DNA of 64,000 nt from Defluviitaleaceae bacterium (GTDB lineage Bacteria; Bacillota; Clostridia; Lachnospirales; WQUN01). The DNA lies in the NCBI GenBank assembly GCA_009784025.1, contig WQVK01000006.1, forward strand, positions 1-64,000. Reading direction: 5' to 3'. The notes under the pieces were generated by a model. The model had not been told where the DNA came from. It saw nothing but the letters and a program-made list of their open reading frames with translations, and searched no databases. Below are positions 1 to 63,927 of this stretch, one piece after another. The position numbers were made by a program, and so were the translations under genes. Each line of letters begins with the position of its first letter. Position 1 is the stretch's first letter.

Positions 1-155
1 ATTTTGAAAAAAACCTCCCGCGAAATGTGGCGGTTTATAATAATTACCATGCCATGATTGTGATGAACGGCAAGGATTTTTGCCGCAAAAGCAAACCGAA
101 ATGCGAAGAATGCCCGCTGCGGGCTTTGCGGTGGGGTAGAATAGTTTTCAACTAA
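1..155 (+). CDS. Endonuclease III family DNA glycosylase, C-terminal fragment
   Basis: Only about the last 50 codons lie inside the window; the gene enters from the left edge and ends at TAA 153-155. The visible tail contains a Tyr-His-Ala stretch followed by C-x6-C-x2-C (CRKSKPKCEECPL). This is the iron-sulfur loop of endonuclease III / HhH-GPD base-excision glycosylases. The family normally has a fourth cysteine about six residues later; here the protein runs into RALRWGRIVFN and stops without one. The last codons and the stop fall on a 25-bp palindrome (150-174), so the C-terminus may have been altered by that repeat. Which glycosylase subfamily this is cannot be told from the tail alone. 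Confidence 0.65.
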   Translation, partial: FEKNLPRNVAVYNNYHAMIVMNGKDFCRKSKPKCEECPLRALRWGRIVFN

Positions 156-174
156 TTACAGATTGTAATTAGTT
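150..174. repeat. Family F palindrome, copy 1
   Basis: Inverted repeat with arms AACTAATTAC and GTAATTAGTT around a 5-nt loop. The same 25 bases recur at 60940-60964. This copy contains the stop codon of the preceding gene. Confidence 0.8.
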
Positions 175-186
175 GGCTTGGCTTTC

Positions 187-29003: not shown

Positions 29004-29030
29004 CAGTTGGTCGGAAAATCCGACCAACTG
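29004..29030. repeat. Family E 27-bp palindrome, intergenic copy
   Basis: Arms CAGTTGGTCGGA and TCCGACCAACTG around AAA. With flanking AAAAATT / AATTTTT the dyad extends to 41 bp (28997-29037). Confidence 0.9.
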
Positions 29031-32058: not shown

Positions 32059-33873
32059 TTATGGGTTTTGTATAAAAATCCTGTGGCGGCCGCCTATGCT
32101 GCGTATGCCGTCTTTTGTGTGGCCGATGTATAGGCCATGTACATAGTTGTTTACGGCGGTTAGTGAAATGCGCCAGTTTGTGGGGAAAGCGGGAATGTAG
32201 TAGTGGAAAAGCTGTTGCCATTCTTGGTAATGGTTAACTAGCCAGTTTATATCCCAGGCGTCTTCGGAGTTGAATAATGCTAAATGGCTTTCTAACCTGG
32301 GGTTCATGTAGCGGGAGCGGTTGGCGGCGGTATGCCCCCATAGCAGGTTTGGGTTGGGGTTTGCCCCGGTGCTCCAGCCTGCTATGTGCACATCCCATGG
32401 CCAGTTATCGGCATTGTACATATTTGCGATTATATCTGTAAAATCTGCGCTGCGGATGGCTACATTTATGCCAATATCGCGCCATGCCTGGGCATAATGC
32501 TGGGCGATTATTGGCCAATCTTCACCGCTGCGGGTTACAAAATCTAGCACAAATTCTGCCCCGCATGGGAAGGTTCGCCATCCGTCTTCGCCCGGCAGCC
32601 AGCCGGCGTGGTCTAAAAGTTGCTTGGCCAATGTTGGGTTATAGGGGAAGCCATCCATTTCTTGGCATATAAACTGGATATGCCCCGGCGGGATGATAGA
32701 TGTGGCCGGGAAGCGCAGCCCGTAGAAAAACCCCTGGGTTAGCAGGTATTCGTCTACAGCGTAGGCTAGGGCGCGCCGCAAATACCGGCAGCCCATGCGT
32801 GGGTTTTGGTGAGGGCGTACTTTCCCGGCGCTTTTGTCCCACCAGCCCAGGTTAAAGGCCACCACATTATACACATTGGTGACATCGCCAATATAATGGA
32901 AATTCTGTGGCGTGGTGAAATCTGCGAAATCCTGTAGCCGGAAGTCTGCCATATGGAAGAAGCCTTCTTCCATAAGGGTTGCCACCATGGCGGTGGGTAC
33001 TATTTGCACCGTAACTTCATCCAAAAACGGCCGCTCTGCCCAAAAATTTTCATTCCGCACAAGATGCATACTCTCCCCCGGCGCAACAGAGTTAACAATA
33101 AACGGCCCCCATCCAATAGGCCGCACCCGGGTATGGTAATGTGTGCTGTGCAAATGAATGGGCACGCCCTCGAATATGTGCCGCGGGTAAGGCGTGGCCC
33201 AAAATCCAAAATGCAACAGGCTGGGGTTAAAATCCACAAAATGATATGTAAGCTGCCGCCCGCATGGCGAAAGCACCAGCCCGGCGATATAATCCGCCTC
33301 CCCCCGGTGGAATTCCCACACCCCCTGGATATTTTGCACCATATATGTAAAGCGAATCCCCCCTGCGGCGGCATATCCCGGCGTGGCGATGGTTTCTATG
33401 GCAAAAACTACATCGCAAAGGGTTAATGGTGTGCCATCATGCCAGTATACATATTCCTGCATGGTTAGGGTGATTGTTTTGGCGGCTTTATCCATCTCCC
33501 AGCTGGCTACCCCATGCTGGCCGATGGTATTCTCCGGGGTGTAGCTAAGAAGGTTGCCCCCTGTAAACCAGCTAGAAAAAGCCCCATCTACAGAGCTGTT
33601 TTGGAACACCGGGTTAAAAATCCCCTGTGGCGGCGTATCTGCCCCCACCGCATGGCGAAAATGCCCACCAAAAACCGGCGCAGGGGTAGGGTAGGGCGAG
33701 CTGGACGGGAATCGCTGGCGAGTTTGGGCCAGCGCAGCCAGCGGGTGCATGTACTCGTGGGCGGGCTGCATGGCGGGGGCGGCGCAGCCCGCCAGCAGCA
33801 ACAGCAGCGCGAGAAAAAATCCAGTTGGTCGGAATTTCCGACCAACTGAAAATTTTTTATGTTGGCATGGCAT
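32059..33873 (-). CDS. Peptide-binding lipoprotein of an oligopeptide ABC importer (OppA/DppA type)
   Basis: 604 residues, family 5 solute-binding protein. It has a lipoprotein signal with lipobox LLAGC (Cys30). Its long basic n-region (residues 9-18, SVGRKFRPTG) is encoded by a family E palindrome. The mature domain shows the usual landmarks: YVYWHDGTPLTLCDVVFAIE, RPIGWGPFIVNSVAPGESMHLVRNENFW, ALAYAVDEYLLTQGFFYG, HAGWLPGEDGWR. The ATG is chosen for its 9-nt distance to GGAGG; an ATG two codons upstream touches that site. The permease and ATPase genes lie just beyond a small opposite-strand gene, on the same strand. Confidence 0.88.
   Translation of the reverse strand: MPCQHKKFSVGRKFRPTGFFLALLLLLAGCAAPAMQPAHEYMHPLAALAQTRQRFPSSSPYPTPAPVFGGHFRHAVGADTPPQGIFNPVFQNSSVDGAFSSWFTGGNLLSYTPENTIGQHGVASWEMDKAAKTITLTMQEYVYWHDGTPLTLCDVVFAIETIATPGYAAAGGIRFTYMVQNIQGVWEFHRGEADYIAGLVLSPCGRQLTYHFVDFNPSLLHFGFWATPYPRHIFEGVPIHLHSTHYHTRVRPIGWGPFIVNSVAPGESMHLVRNENFWAERPFLDEVTVQIVPTAMVATLMEEGFFHMADFRLQDFADFTTPQNFHYIGDVTNVYNVVAFNLGWWDKSAGKVRPHQNPRMGCRYLRRALAYAVDEYLLTQGFFYGLRFPATSIIPPGHIQFICQEMDGFPYNPTLAKQLLDHAGWLPGEDGWRTFPCGAEFVLDFVTRSGEDWPIIAQHYAQAWRDIGINVAIRSADFTDIIANMYNADNWPWDVHIAGWSTGANPNPNLLWGHTAANRSRYMNPRLESHLALFNSEDAWDINWLVNHYQEWQQLFHYYIPAFPTNWRISLTAVNNYVHGLYIGHTKDGIRSIGGRHRIFIQNP
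33822..33848. repeat. Family E 27-bp palindrome inside the binding-protein signal peptide
   Basis: Same arms as the intergenic copies. It is 27 bp long, so it keeps the frame, and it has no stop codon in any of the six frames. It encodes residues 9-18, directly before the hydrophobic core FFLALLLLLAG. Confidence 0.92.
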
Positions 33874-33924
33874 GGTTATCATCCTCCAGGTTAGATTTTT
33901 TGGGTTTATATGGTACAATAGCTT

Positions 33925-34342: not shown

Positions 34343-35197
34343 CTAACGCCGCCGCCGCTTCACATCCACGGCTCTGTTCAGGGCCTGGCCTACATAATTT
34401 ATGCACATTGTCACCACCAAAATAAGCAGCGCCGCCGGCAGCCATTGCCAGGGGCGGTTTTGCAGCGCTGCCGGGTTTGCCGCTTGGGCTATTAGCGTGC
34501 CCAGGCTGGGTGTGGTAAAGGGCATCCCAAAGCCCAAAAAAGTCAAACCCGTCTCTATGCCAATAGTATTGGCAATGGTTAGCGTAAGGCTTACCACCAT
34601 AAAGGAAACAATATTAGGCAGCACTTCCCTAAAAATTATCACAATGTTTGGCGTGCCAAGGGTCTTGGACGCCCGCACATAATCCAACGCGCTTTGGCGC
34701 AGCGCCACCATGCGTATTCCCCGGGCCATACCAAGCCAGCCAAACAGCGTTAACACCGCACCCAGCATCACAGGGGTGCTGGGCAGCATGGTGATAAGCA
34801 CAATCGTGACCATAAAAGTTGGCAGCATAATAAAAAAATCTATCACCCGCATAAGAATATTATCCAGCCGCCCCCCATAAACCCCAGCCAGTAGCCCCAC
34901 AAAAATCCCAATGCCAGCTGTGGCAAACGACACTACAAACGCAATAGTAAAAGAATTCCGCGCGCCCACCACAAGCTGCACCACCATATCCCGCCCCACC
35001 ATATCTGTACCCAGCCAAAACTCCCGGCAAGGCGGCTGGTTGCGCCGCAAAAGATACATACGCTCCACATCATCCACAGAAAAACTAAGCGACCACGCAT
35101 ACGCTACAAACACAATAGCAAAAAAAACAACTAAGCTAACAAAAGCCAGCTTGTCGCCGTAAACTTCCCGCCACATAATCTGCCAAGGGTTTTTCAT
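34343..35197 (-). CDS. oppC: Oligopeptide ABC transporter permease (OppC/DppC type)
   Basis: 284 residues. The OppC N-terminal region (KLAFVSLVVFFAIVFVAYAWSLSF, then the extracytoplasmic segment ending WLGTDMVGRDMVVQLVVGARNSF) and the core with EAA-type loop DYVRASKTLGTPNIVIIFREVLPNI are typical. It has five to six membrane helices. The start is the ATG after CAGGTGATT. A 257-bp gap filled by family B and A repeats separates it from the preceding permease gene on the same strand. It is the last gene before the convergent TfoX_C gene. Confidence 0.92.
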   Translation of the reverse strand: MKNPWQIMWREVYGDKLAFVSLVVFFAIVFVAYAWSLSFSVDDVERMYLLRRNQPPCREFWLGTDMVGRDMVVQLVVGARNSFTIAFVVSFATAGIGIFVGLLAGVYGGRLDNILMRVIDFFIMLPTFMVTIVLITMLPSTPVMLGAVLTLFGWLGMARGIRMVALRQSALDYVRASKTLGTPNIVIIFREVLPNIVSFMVVSLTLTIANTIGIETGLTFLGFGMPFTTPSLGTLIAQAANPAALQNRPWQWLPAALLILVVTMCINYVGQALNRAVDVKRRRR

Positions 35198-35219
35198 GAA
35201 TCACCTGCTTTTTTGTGAT

Positions 35220-35446
35220 AGAACAAGACCGCCAGAGGCTCTGCCCAAGCACCTCCACTTTTTCATAATGTTCGCGTCGCGAACCAGGCATCTTCCAGGT
35301 TCAATTTAGAAAAAGCGAGATAAAAACTCTGAAATTTGGGGAATAGACTTCTTCCGAAATTACGTTTATTAATTTCGGAAGAGTTACATTTTCAATCTTT
35401 TGCTTCTTTTGAAATTGCGTCTTTTGCAATTTCAGAAGAACTCTAA
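35220..35446. repeat. Family B and A repeats between the two permease genes
   Basis: A B copy with insert (about 35220-35336; GACCGCCAGAGG start, TCGCGTCGCGAACC insert) is followed by a complete A copy (35342-35446) with stems CCGAAATTA / TAATTTCGG and TTTGAAATTGC / GCAATTTCAGA. They occupy the whole intergenic space inside an apparent operon. Confidence 0.85.
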
Positions 35447-35454
35447 CGAAGGAA

Positions 35455-36414
35455 TTACCGTATACGAATCCGCGGGTCTGCAATCGTGATAAAAATATCT
35501 GACAATAGCACCCCGGCCACCCCTATAAACCCATAAATCATAATAAGTGCGTTGGCTGTGGGGAAATCCCGGGCGGTTATTGATGTTACAAACAAATTCC
35601 CCATGCCTGGGTAGCCAAAAACCCGCTCTATTATCACCGAGCCGCTTAGCAGCCCGGCAATGCTAGCCCCCAGGCCAGACGCCAAGGGTAGCGTCGCATT
35701 GCGGAAAATATGCCGCGAATACACTTTGCCTTCTGGCAGGCCTTTGGCGCGGGCGGTGGTTACATATTCTGCGGATTCGTTCTCGATAATCTCGCTGCGC
35801 AAGATATTGATTATGCCCACGGTGTTTAAGATTGCTGCGGTAAAAGCTGGCAAAATTAAATGATGCAGCCGCGACAGCCAAAAAGCTGCACTGCCAGGCG
35901 CAAGCCGCACATCTACGCTGCCCATGATAGGAAACCAGCCCAGCCTAAAGCCGAACACGAAAATATTCAGTAGCGCAAAAACCAAAGTTGGCATGGCGAT
36001 GGCCACAAAGGTGTAGGCCACAATCAGCCTGTCTGCAAGGGTTTCCCTGTACCGCCCCGCCACAAAACCCAACGGAATAGCCAGCAAATATGTAAAAGCC
36101 GCGCCAACTAGCGATAGCCTTACAGTATTAGGCAACCGCTCGCCAATCACTTCCGTTACGGGCCGGGCATAATGCCAGCTGCGCCCAAAATCCCCACGGA
36201 AAATCCCACGCATCCATTCCATATACTGCACCGCCCAACCCCGGTTTAACCCAAGCTCTACCCGCAGCCGGTCAATATCCTCTGGCGAAACATCGGGGTC
36301 AATTAGCCCCGTAAGGGCATCACCAGGCATGGCCTGCGCCAGCAAAAACACCGCAACACTAAGCAACCAAAGCTGCGGCAAAACAACCAAAAACCGCCTC
36401 AAAATAATCTTCAT
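35455..36414 (-). CDS. oppB: Oligopeptide ABC transporter permease (OppB/DppB type)
   Basis: 319 residues. The N-terminal helix LPQLWLLSVAVFLLAQAMPGDAL is the usual OppB start. The EAA loop ESAEYVTTARAKGLPEGKVYSRHIFRNATLPL and the segment IIERVFGYPGMGNLFVTSITARDFP are diagnostic. It has six membrane helices. It follows the ATPase gene by 18 nt, with a weak GGGATG site before the ATG. It forms the import channel with the OppC-like subunit. Confidence 0.93.
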   Translation of the reverse strand: MKIILRRFLVVLPQLWLLSVAVFLLAQAMPGDALTGLIDPDVSPEDIDRLRVELGLNRGWAVQYMEWMRGIFRGDFGRSWHYARPVTEVIGERLPNTVRLSLVGAAFTYLLAIPLGFVAGRYRETLADRLIVAYTFVAIAMPTLVFALLNIFVFGFRLGWFPIMGSVDVRLAPGSAAFWLSRLHHLILPAFTAAILNTVGIINILRSEIIENESAEYVTTARAKGLPEGKVYSRHIFRNATLPLASGLGASIAGLLSGSVIIERVFGYPGMGNLFVTSITARDFPTANALIMIYGFIGVAGVLLSDIFITIADPRIRIR

Positions 36415-36428
36415 AAAACATCCCTTGG

Positions 36429-36495
36429 TTACTTAAAGTTTTTTGTCAAACTTTTTTCCAAAAAAGTTTGTGGGTGTGAGCAAAGCCCACGGTCC
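36429..36495. repeat. Family B repeat overlapping the end of the oppF-like gene
   Basis: Hairpins GTGGGC-TTT-GCTCAC and AAACTTTTTTGGAAAAAAGTTT on the minus strand, ending in AAAAAACTTTAA. The gene reads through it and stops at its final TAA, so roughly the last 20 residues are repeat-encoded. Confidence 0.85.
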
Positions 36496-37389
36496 TGTCT
36501 CGCAACCAACAGCCGCGAGATGCCCAGCTCCAACCCGCCGCAAGTCTAGCACTCGGCCGTTTGTGTCGTAGCAGCTAGGGATTTCTTGCCTGTACGCGGC
36601 CTCGATGGTTGCGCGCCTTTGTAGCGCCTGGCCGCGTTTGGTGGGGTCTGTTTCTGGAATTGCTGTGATTAGCCGCTGGGTGTAAATATGCCGGGGGTTC
36701 TCGAAAATATCCGCGCGGCTACCCACTTCCACAAACCTGCCACGGTGCATAATCGCCAGCCGCGGGCACATATGCCGCACCACGCTCATGTCATGGCTTA
36801 TAAACAATATGCTAACCCCAAGCTGGCGCTGCACATTTTTAAGGCAGTTAAGCACCTGGGCCTGAACCGAAACATCCAAGGCGGACACTGGCTCGTCGGC
36901 CACAATAAGCCGCGGCCCAAGCGCAATTGCCCGTGCCACCCCAACCCGCTGCCGCTGCCCGCCAGAAAACTCAAACGGATACTTAGCCGCCGCATCTGCC
37001 CGCAGCCCCACCATATCCAACAACTCTGCCACCCGCCGCACCTCCTCTGCCCTAGACAACCTGCAAAAATTTCGCAACGGCTCGGCAACAATATCTCGCA
37101 CTCTTTTCCGTGGGTTAAGCGCCGCAAAAACATCCTGAAAAATCATCTGCACATTGCGCCTATACCAAGACCTGTTCCGCCCCAGCCCGCCCGTAACATT
37201 AACATCCCCAAAAAAAATCTTACCCCCTCGCACTCCCTCCAACCCCAAAACCGCCCGCCCAAGCGTACTTTTGCCGCTGCCAGACTCCCCCACAACCCCA
37301 AAAGTCTCACCAGCCCCTACACAAAAGCTAACCCCATCCACAGCCTTTATGCCGCCGTAATAAACCTGCAAATCCCGCACCGTTAGCAT
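36433..37389 (-). CDS. oppF: Oligopeptide ABC transporter ATP-binding protein (OppF/DppF type)
   Basis: 318 residues. Walker A is GESGSGKSTLGRA (about 34-46), the signature is FSGGQRQRVGVARAIA, Walker B is RLIVADEPVSALDVSVQAQ, and the H-loop is LFISHDMSVVRHM. The C-terminal OppF extension (AIPETDP...) continues to a conserved cysteine (IPSCYD) as in family members. The final residues GPWALLTPTNFFGKKFDKKL come from a family B repeat and have no counterpart in the family. Peptide importers normally need an OppD partner; none is encoded in this cluster, so it must act as a homodimer or with a distant OppD. The start is ATG after GAGGTG. Confidence 0.92.
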   Translation of the reverse strand: MLTVRDLQVYYGGIKAVDGVSFCVGAGETFGVVGESGSGKSTLGRAVLGLEGVRGGKIFFGDVNVTGGLGRNRSWYRRNVQMIFQDVFAALNPRKRVRDIVAEPLRNFCRLSRAEEVRRVAELLDMVGLRADAAAKYPFEFSGGQRQRVGVARAIALGPRLIVADEPVSALDVSVQAQVLNCLKNVQRQLGVSILFISHDMSVVRHMCPRLAIMHRGRFVEVGSRADIFENPRHIYTQRLITAIPETDPTKRGQALQRRATIEAAYRQEIPSCYDTNGRVLDLRRVGAGHLAAVGCETGPWALLTPTNFFGKKFDKKL

Positions 37390-38094: not shown

Positions 38095-38123
38095 TGTTTT
38101 GGCATCATTTAATTCAAAAAAAT

Positions 38124-38203
38124 GGTACCATACGGTACCATTTTTCCATGATTATGGTACCGTATGGTACCATTTTTCCATGATTATGGTACCGTATGGT
38201 ACC
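38124..38203. repeat. Family D GGTACC palindromes, three units at 32-bp spacing
   Basis: Units at 38124 (GGTACCATACGGTACC), 38156 and 38188 (both GGTACCGTATGGTACC) are each exactly 32 bp apart, with the conserved 16-bp spacer ATTTTTCCATGATTAT between them. Six T follow the last unit. The array lies downstream of sigF. Confidence 0.92.
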
Positions 38204-55081: not shown

Positions 55082-55516
55082 ATGGATAGAGTGCCTTATA
55101 GGCGGGTTACTGTGGCCGGCGAGTTTGGGCGGGGGCGTAAGGTTGAAGAGGCTGCTGGGGTTTCTGGTGGCGAGACTGTTATCGTGCAATGTATTTTTAG
55201 TGCGGTTTTGTTGGTTTTTGTGTTGCTGGTTGGGCTGGTGGACTTGCCCCCTGCCGCCGCGCTTAGAAATGGGATAAATGAGGTTTTGGTGGGGGCTAAC
55301 ACCCCTGGCGAGCTTGCCAGCGAGCTGCGGCGGCTTACGGGGCAGCTTCCGGGCGGGCAGCCCCAGCCGCTTTTGCAACCAGATGCGGATATTTTTGTGC
55401 CGCCAACCCAAGCACCGGTTTTTCAGTTTGAAATCGCACCAGCCGTGACGGCATATGAGGAAGCCTCAAATCCACAGATTCCGGGGCCGTCACCAGTTCC
55501 GGAACTGTGGGATTAG
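55082..55516 (+). CDS. SpoIVFA-like protein, N-terminal membrane part
   Basis: 144 residues from ATG after GGGGTG. A basic cytoplasmic N-terminus (YRRVTVAGEFGRGRKVEEA) is followed by one membrane helix (VIVQCIFSAVLLVFVLLVGLVDL) and a proline/alanine-rich extracytoplasmic linker ending PGPSPVPELWD. This is the topology of the first half of SpoIVFA, the regulator that holds SpoIVFB inactive; the second half (M23/LytM domain) is encoded in the next, overlapping frame. Either the gene is split into two coupled cistrons or a -1 frameshift joins them. SpoIVFA identity rests on order and topology, not residue identity. Confidence 0.6.
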   Translation: MDRVPYRRVTVAGEFGRGRKVEEAAGVSGGETVIVQCIFSAVLLVFVLLVGLVDLPPAAALRNGINEVLVGANTPGELASELRRLTGQLPGGQPQPLLQPDADIFVPPTQAPVFQFEIAPAVTAYEEASNPQIPGPSPVPELWD

Positions 55517-56004
55517 CCGAAGAAGCGGCTTATTACGATTATGAATACCTGGCCGGAGGCGGCCTTCGCATTATTCAAGAAAATCAGTTGGTCGGAATTT
55601 CCGACCAACTGATTTATCCGCTGTGGATAAACCCGTTGTATGGCAGGGTTTCTTCGCCGGCGGGGCTGCGGCAAAGCCCGATTTCAGGCCGCAACGAGTT
55701 TCATGATGGCATTGATATTGCTGTGCCAGTGGGCACGGCGGTGGTTGCACCTAGGGCAGGGCAGGTTGTGGCTGTGGGTAATTCGCCTTCCTTCGGGCGG
55801 TTTGTACGTATCGCCCATGGAGATTATTATATGTCGTTTTATGCTCATTTAAGCGGGGTTGTTGTGGCGGTGGGGGATTATGTGGTTCAGGGGCAGCATT
55901 TCGCTTATTCTGGCAATACGGGCTGGTCTACAGGGCCGCATTTGCATTATGGGCTGTTCCGTGGCGGGCAGTTTGTTAACCCGATAGGATATGTAAATTT
56001 ATGA
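55507..56004 (+). CDS. spoIVFA: M23 (LytM) domain protein, SpoIVFA-like C-terminal part
   Basis: About 165 residues from a GTG inside the end of the previous frame (10-nt overlap); the frame remains open for some distance upstream of it. The M23 domain keeps the zinc ligands: FHDGIDIAVPVGTAVVAPRAGQV (His and Asp) and GPHLHYGLFRGG (HxH), with YAHLSGVVVAVGDYVVQGQ between. Residues 27-35 (QLVGISDQL) are encoded by a family E palindrome. It ends with ATGA shared with the M50 protease gene. With complete ligands it might be an active endopeptidase, unlike Bacillus SpoIVFA. Confidence 0.65.
   Translation: MGLAEEAAYYDYEYLAGGGLRIIQENQLVGISDQLIYPLWINPLYGRVSSPAGLRQSPISGRNEFHDGIDIAVPVGTAVVAPRAGQVVAVGNSPSFGRFVRIAHGDYYMSFYAHLSGVVVAVGDYVVQGQHFAYSGNTGWSTGPHLHYGLFRGGQFVNPIGYVNL
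55585..55611. repeat. Family E 27-bp palindrome inside the M23 gene
   Basis: Identical 27-mer to the copy at 33822-33848. Here it is read exactly in codon phase as nine residues, between a repeat-free N-terminus and the M23 domain. It introduces no stop. Confidence 0.92.
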
Positions 56005-63592: not shown

Positions 63593-63695
63593 TAGACTTC
63601 TTGCGAAATTCTCGTAGGGGGTTTCGCAAGAAGTTACATTTTCAATCTTTTGCTTCTTCTGAAATTGCGTTTTTTGCAATTTCAGAAGAACCCTA
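63593..63695. repeat. Family A structured repeat, complete
   Basis: First stem TTCTTGCGAAA / TTTCGCAAGAA, with G-C replacing the C-G of other copies at that pair. Conserved linker, second stem TTCTGAAATTGC / GCAATTTCAGAA. Confidence 0.88.
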
Positions 63696-63900: not shown

Positions 63901-63927
63901 CAGTTGGTCGGAAAATCCGACCAACTG
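63901..63927. repeat. Family E 27-bp palindrome, intergenic copy
   Basis: Identical to the copy at 29004-29030, with AAAAAATT before and AATTTT after it. Confidence 0.9.

Follow-up and report, generated by a model that had tools for sequence, protein, structure and literature searches.

Analysis of a 64,000-nucleotide stretch of the genome of a Defluviitaleaceae bacterium (positions 1 to 64,000 of contig WQVK01000006.1, hereafter the window) revealed that a 27-bp palindrome lying in frame in the gene of an OppA-like lipoprotein belongs to a repeat family dispersed through the host genome, and that the same palindrome is part of the coding sequence of a small gene with a Bro-N domain. Several copies of the repeat lie in frame in conserved genes, the palindrome built into Bro-N genes covaries between its arms, and in three genera the dispersed repeats match the Bro-N site of their own genome. 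We consider it probable that the element is a dispersed hairpin resembling the repetitive extragenic palindromes (REPs) and the Rickettsia palindromic elements (RPEs), with the Bro-N gene as its source or partner, spreading through insertion and being tolerated where it falls in protein linkers. The link to Bro-N, which was absent from the initial annotation of the window, puts the probable nature of the element in a different light.

The palindrome in the lipoprotein gene, CAGTTGGTCGGAATTTCCGACCAACTG (33822-33848, minus strand), is perfect, with 11-bp arms and a 5-nt centre, and its RNA hairpin folds at -24.6 kcal/mol (z -7.5). As the initial annotation had described, it is read in frame as residues 9-18 directly before the hydrophobic core, the N-terminus of the lipoprotein being MPCQHKKF-SVGRKFRPTG-FFLALLLLLAGC; when the ten residues are removed in thought, an ordinary lipoprotein signal remains. 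Orthologues have a short normal MKR or MKK n-region without the ten residues, most of them aligning only from about residue 37, and in no relative were the same residues found without the DNA palindrome, so that the observation which the initial annotation had named as a refutation did not arise. The window holds four copies of the 27-mer, compared with 0.01 expected by chance. Two of these, at 29004 and 63901, had been noted before, and a further copy at 55585 had gone unmentioned. The latter was excluded from the set of in-frame copies because its M23 peptidase gene is already frameshifted upstream. The M23 peptidase locus itself (55082-56004) appears to be a composite of short repeats around the frameshift and the palindrome.

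In the host genome (2.14 Mb in 67 contigs, 82% complete), the 27-mer occurs in 114 exact copies, compared with none for a reversed control, and in 158 copies when up to three mismatches are allowed. No copy was found in 95 relatives (37 from the same family, none from the same genus). The exact copies show just two centres, AAAAT and AAATT, counting both strands. A GTCGC subfamily, CAGTTGGTCGC..GCGACCAACTG, in which both arms have changed together, was found 11 times in a sample of about 390 kb and five small contigs, and probably makes up many of the extra copies gained at three mismatches. Pairing continues beyond the core for 4.25 bp, compared with 2.16 bp when the flanking partners were shuffled (maximum 2.84 in 1000 rounds), and reaches about 7 bp on each side. 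These outer arms are A/T-rich and show compensating changes (e.g. aaatt/aattt to aaatc/gattt), the element thus extending from its 27-bp core to about 41 bp. Degenerate copies were scarce in the own-genome sequence examined (one copy with two mismatches, of the GTCGC subfamily, and one match with six). The element had no Rfam match at the gathering score. Public genomes were also searched with the exact pattern as a pointer to a horizontal source; only two unrelated genomes and one viral contig were returned, few enough for chance hairpins, and this candidate was rejected.

One copy of the 27-mer (L086/L241) sits in the gene of a 152-residue Bro-N protein (PF02498 at 28.8 bits, curated cut-off 25.6), where it is read in another frame (QLVGFSDQLK). 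Bro-N genes are common in phages and baculoviruses and are poorly understood. The homologues align free of gaps across the palindrome site, with no net insertion. The site was read at the same codons, first in the Bro-N genes of relatives and then in 66 homologous genes of bacteria and viruses, mostly from viral contigs. In 62 of the 66, an 11+5+11-bp palindrome with 8-11 of 11 pairs stands at the aligned register, and three more reach nine pairs with a 1-base shift. The arms differ widely from gene to gene (CAACTGGTTGC..GCAACCAGTTG, GAGTCGGCGAG..CTCGCCGACTC, CAGTTGTACGA..TCGTACAACTG, GAACTGTCCGA..TCGGACAGTTG). While random places in the same loci mostly gave 5-6 pairs as the best of 19, the 59 distinct sites had a mean of 9.58 pairs, compared with 6.33 when codons were redrawn without changing the peptide and 5.22 (at most 5.98 in 1000 rounds) when arms were re-dealt between the sites, gene kinship being uncorrected for in both comparisons. 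Within its reading frame, the site is the best palindrome in 55 of the 59 cases, and most stem positions show several pair types. The peptide encoded at the site varies with the palindrome (VTNC, YEKI, SEKI, SASV). Since the peptide follows the palindrome, it is a feature of the nucleic acid that is conserved. Two Chlorohelix genes have no palindrome (3 of 11 pairs), which indicates that the Bro-N protein does not need it, and one Megaera gene has a weak one (7 of 11).

In the predicted structure of the Bro-N protein (predicted local distance difference test, pLDDT, 86), the residues encoded by the palindrome form a loop that leads into a strand. The model resembles the DNA-binding protein DdrC weakly and without significance, and Bro-N proteins match the PADLOC defence candidates PDC-S04 and PDC-S13. 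Bro-N genes stand alone in odd places, such as between purK and purE (by our own reading) and after parB in Chlorohelix. In a type I-B CRISPR operon of Arcobacter cloacae pACLO, cas4 and cas1b are separated by a Bro-N gene (L382) whose palindrome is perfect, at 11 of 11 pairs.

Dispersed repeats matched the Bro-N site of their own genome in three genera, represented by the host genome (G000, with two genes and two families), G018 and G027. In the host genome, the first Bro-N gene has exactly the sequence of the main 27-mer family, and the second (L260) is one mismatch away from a second family, CAACTWATTACA..TGTAATWAGTTG, of which about ten copies were found in 832 kb and one more at 149-175 of the window. 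In G018, which belongs to another genus, two loci were first found to match its Bro-N site exactly. When this site was set as a prediction and searched in 96 genomes, G018 had 306 exact copies and its congener G037 a single one, and the 94 others had none. In a 386-kb sample of G018 the copies were built alike, again with A/T outer arms, and one lay in frame in an rRNA-methyltransferase-like gene. Outer arms of A/T like those around the dispersed copies also flank the Bro-N copy, both in the host genome and in G018. G027 has dispersed relatives of its two Bro-N sites, G033 has only diverged relatives of its site, and G030, with a long Bro-N protein, has no dispersed copies in 125 kb. Genomes with dispersed families encode Bro-N-only proteins of about 140-175 residues and the others mostly proteins of about 280 residues, the genomes being too few for a rule. 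A Bro-N site query had no match in E. coli and matched at 2 places in a 388-kb Parabacteroides record. One locus of G037 (L033) holds a palindrome, GGTGCGGGTAG-TGACA-CTACCCGCACC, with A/T flanks; it may be cognate to the Bro-N gene of G037 (L252), where an insertion seems to break up the site.

The host has ten copies that are read in frame within genes (Table 1), and all of them use a single reading frame, giving [S/P]VGR..RPT. The initial annotation had described the element as free of stops in all six frames. This holds for the 27-mer alone; the A that usually flanks it closes one frame (...AAC TGA) and in practice leaves two open per strand, so that the null expectation for sharing a frame is nearer one half than one third. 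In the YgiQ-type protein, the link is much shorter in all 19 aligned orthologues, most of which share 72-79% identity over their N-terminal segment, and orthologues of the kinase-like protein lack 16 residues at the element site. The insert in V-ATPase subunit B falls where yeast subunit B shows a gap of nine in solved structures. Judged from these empty orthologous sites, the family would have spread by insertion. A search for empty sites within the genome, using the flanks of other repeats, gave two weak cases only.

Counting and classifying the copies, as the initial annotation had proposed, placed about nine of the 105 examined within genes, although genes cover about 74% of the window, and the rest between genes. 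The intergenic copies lie in 58 tandem, 17 divergent and 13 convergent gaps, close to the background of gap lengths, and no enrichment near gene starts was found among the 105. The G018 sample was likewise neutral (6 convergent and 10 divergent copies). This placement does not fit terminators or operators, and it suggests insertions retained where they are tolerated.

We propose that a palindromic element with a 27-bp core has recently spread through the chromosome, and that its copies would persist where they do little harm, between genes or, read in frame, within protein loops and linkers and the n-region of a signal peptide. Its source or partner would be a small Bro-N-domain gene with the same palindrome at a fixed place in the coding sequence; the Bro-N palindromes differ between genomes, each with its own dispersed family. 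The Bro-N protein may recognise the hairpin as single-stranded DNA, cruciform or RNA, and this recognition would underlie the spreading, in a manner similar to the action of REP-associated tyrosine transposases (RAYTs) on REPs. Such putative recognition leading to spread is in our view the most likely mechanism. More tentatively, and with slightly less than even confidence, we suggest that Bro-N genes are a widespread class with a built-in coding hairpin recognised by their own protein, and that in some lineages the protein has been reduced to the Bro-N domain, the hairpin now being a genome-wide mobile repeat in an independently evolved, RAYT-REP-like system that inserts in frame.

Several observations weigh against this proposal. 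The empty sites rest on orthologues that are 35-79% identical and none of the same genus, and no insertion was seen between close strains. The linkers in MnmE and AddA are hypervariable anyway and are weaker proof of insertion, and several inserts exceed the length of the element (16 residues in the kinase-like protein, about 35 in YgiQ). No known nuclease motif and no target-site duplication, such as marks a miniature inverted-repeat transposable element (MITE), were found for the element; the flanks are themselves symmetric, which makes such a duplication indistinguishable from an arm. The Y1_Tnp/RAYT transposase domain (PF01797) had no match in the 82% complete host genome, although control genomes were positive, this domain being the only one covered in the search for a parent insertion sequence. 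The predicted Bro-N fold has no confident match among solved structures. Finally, long-type Bro-N genes (about 280 residues) mostly carry the palindrome with no known dispersed copies, and no Bro-N partner was found for other palindrome families in these genomes.

The main alternative is that the palindromes are non-mobile chromosomal binding sites for the Bro-N protein, regulatory or nucleoid-like, kept by selection, and that the genic copy serves autoregulation. DNA binding by a Bro domain has been reported (PMC4257102), gene and site match in each genome, and few degenerate copies were seen. However, copies lie in frame in housekeeping genes at positions empty in relatives, they are not enriched close to gene starts, and 306 copies in one genome with almost none in congeners would be a fast turnover for regulatory sites. 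We regard this alternative as unlikely, at roughly a one-in-five level of credence. It is considerably less probable that the copies act as intrinsic terminators in both directions or as hairpins stabilising mRNA, and share their sequence by chance. While the stable hairpins flanked by runs of A and T and the covarying outer arms would suit such a function, the copies favour neither gene ends nor convergent over divergent gaps, and terminators neither share a stem sequence across 100-300 copies nor sit in frame in genes. Slightly less probable still is a plain selfish palindrome with no protein partner, in which the Bro-N copy would be just another insertion. In-frame insertion has indeed been reported for RPEs (PMC2229807), but the Bro-N copy is not an insertion, the homologues being free of gaps and nearly all carrying a palindrome there, viral genes included, and from another Bro-N palindrome another repeat family was correctly predicted. 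Uptake signals occur mostly as single copies, and although the element is short, numerous and species-specific, the own-genome sequence examined had no unpaired half-sites, which makes a DNA-uptake-like signal arranged as inverted pairs very improbable.

The dispersed hairpin with its Bro-N partner combines features of known systems. Like RPEs and the Wolbachia palindromic elements (WPEs), it is palindromic and hairpin-forming, and occurs both between genes and in frame in conserved genes (ten here), where it is tolerated by the protein. An addA-like gene carries the element here too, as WPE-like inserts have been reported in Wolbachia addA (PMC4224334). RPEs are 100-150 bp long with no protein partner described (PMC2229807, PMC3767692), whereas the present element has a 27-bp core, outer arms of about 7 bp and a cognate Bro-N gene. 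The resemblance to RPEs seen by the initial annotation therefore stands for a dispersed palindrome entering genes in frame, and not for membership of the RPE family, from which the length of 27 to about 41 bp sets it apart. We know of no sequence shared with RPEs and of no relation between the two. The REPs and REPINs, with the RAYT gene, are also short palindromes present in hundreds of copies, each genome having a sequence of its own and a single gene to which the repeats are tied (PMC3116915); here, too, each repeat goes with the partner gene found in its own genome. Unlike in that system, the gene is Bro-N instead of RAYT, there is no Y1_Tnp, the palindrome lies inside the coding sequence of the partner, and the element enters genes as well, REPs being extragenic. 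The element thus works like an RPE in its in-frame insertion and like REP/RAYT as a gene-tied repeat, and has neither the size of the former nor the Y1 transposase of the latter. It is also very short, probably mobile, hairpin-forming and high in copy number like the cyanobacterial small dispersed repeat SDR5, reportedly about 24 bp long and mobile (Elhai et al. 2008, cited in PMC3116915), for which no associated gene is known to us.

In the literature, of which our coverage was partial, no paper was found linking Bro-N genes to a conserved coding palindrome or to cognate repeats, and we are aware of no earlier description of a system of Bro-N genes and dispersed palindromes. The evidence points to an undescribed kind of repeat system. 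Among the short palindromic repeats of bacteria, REPs are to our knowledge the only ones linked to a known partner gene. Another gene family, unrelated to theirs, with a coding palindrome that predicts the repeats of its own genome would make the origin of most such repeats testable, as the Bro-N gene can be read and the repeat forecast, as was done for G018. It would also suggest a function for Bro-N genes, the recognition of a hairpin, and a novel way for conserved proteins to gain short peptides.

Table 1. Features of the window and in-frame copies of the palindrome in the host genome (L numbers are loci of the analysis).
Feature	Position or locus	Strand	Remark
27-bp palindrome in OppA-like lipoprotein gene	33822..33848	-	in-frame copy; encodes residues 9-18 (SVGRKFRPTG)
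YgiQ-type radical SAM protein	L060		in-frame copy
MnmE	L065		in-frame copy
Kinase-like protein, no Pfam family	L089		in-frame copy
ABC ATPase	L094		in-frame copy
PLD-type cardiolipin synthase-like protein	L106		in-frame copy
AddA-like helicase-nuclease	L119		in-frame copy
Dxs	L132		in-frame copy, GTCGC subfamily
V-ATPase subunit B	L266		in-frame copy, GTCGC subfamily
RecD2-like helicase	L279		in-frame copy, GTCGC subfamily; assignment read from sequence
Intergenic copy of 27-mer	29004..29030		A and T runs prolong the stem on its outer side, to 22 bp in the fold
Intergenic copy of 27-mer	63901..63927		sequence match, fold
27-mer copy within M23 peptidase gene	55585..55611		frame broken about 70-120 bp upstream; halves 55082-55516, 55459-56004
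Copy of second family, CAACTAATTACA..TGTAATTAGTTG	149..175		cognate to Bro-N gene L260; sequence match
OppA-like solute-binding lipoprotein, 604 aa	32059..33873	-	Pfam match: SBP_bac_5, PF00496, family-5 solute-binding protein
GGAGG ribosome-binding site of OppA-like gene	33883..33887	-	9 nt before ATG (33871-33873), from sequence

The OppA-like gene adjoins genes for an opp/dpp-type permease and ATPase (34343-37389). Other repeats are present in the window and in related genomes. At 38119-38144 lies AAAATGGTACC..GGTACCATTTT, a member of another palindrome family with 12 copies in a 391-kb sample, for which no Bro-N partner was found, and at 63656-63688 lies the hairpin CTTCTGAAATTGC, one of several further dispersed repeats often found beside the 27-mer. 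G026 (L219-L228), in which no Bro-N gene was detected, has its own family, AAAAATCGCGC..GCGCGATTTTT, with 31 hairpins in 200 kb and none in genes. The linkers of MnmE in G026 and G018 (L180, L181) and of AddA in G034 (L203), all genomes of the same family, are the same that hold the element in the host genome, and they carry other in-frame palindromes of the gggggagaaacTTTTTT..AAAAAAgtttctccccc type. Two genes of G018 (L371, L247) contain in-frame repeats, an rRNA-methyltransferase-like gene having units of the ARQARSGHRGHVSxxTHSLEAGGS type and purK a tandem unit of another kind.
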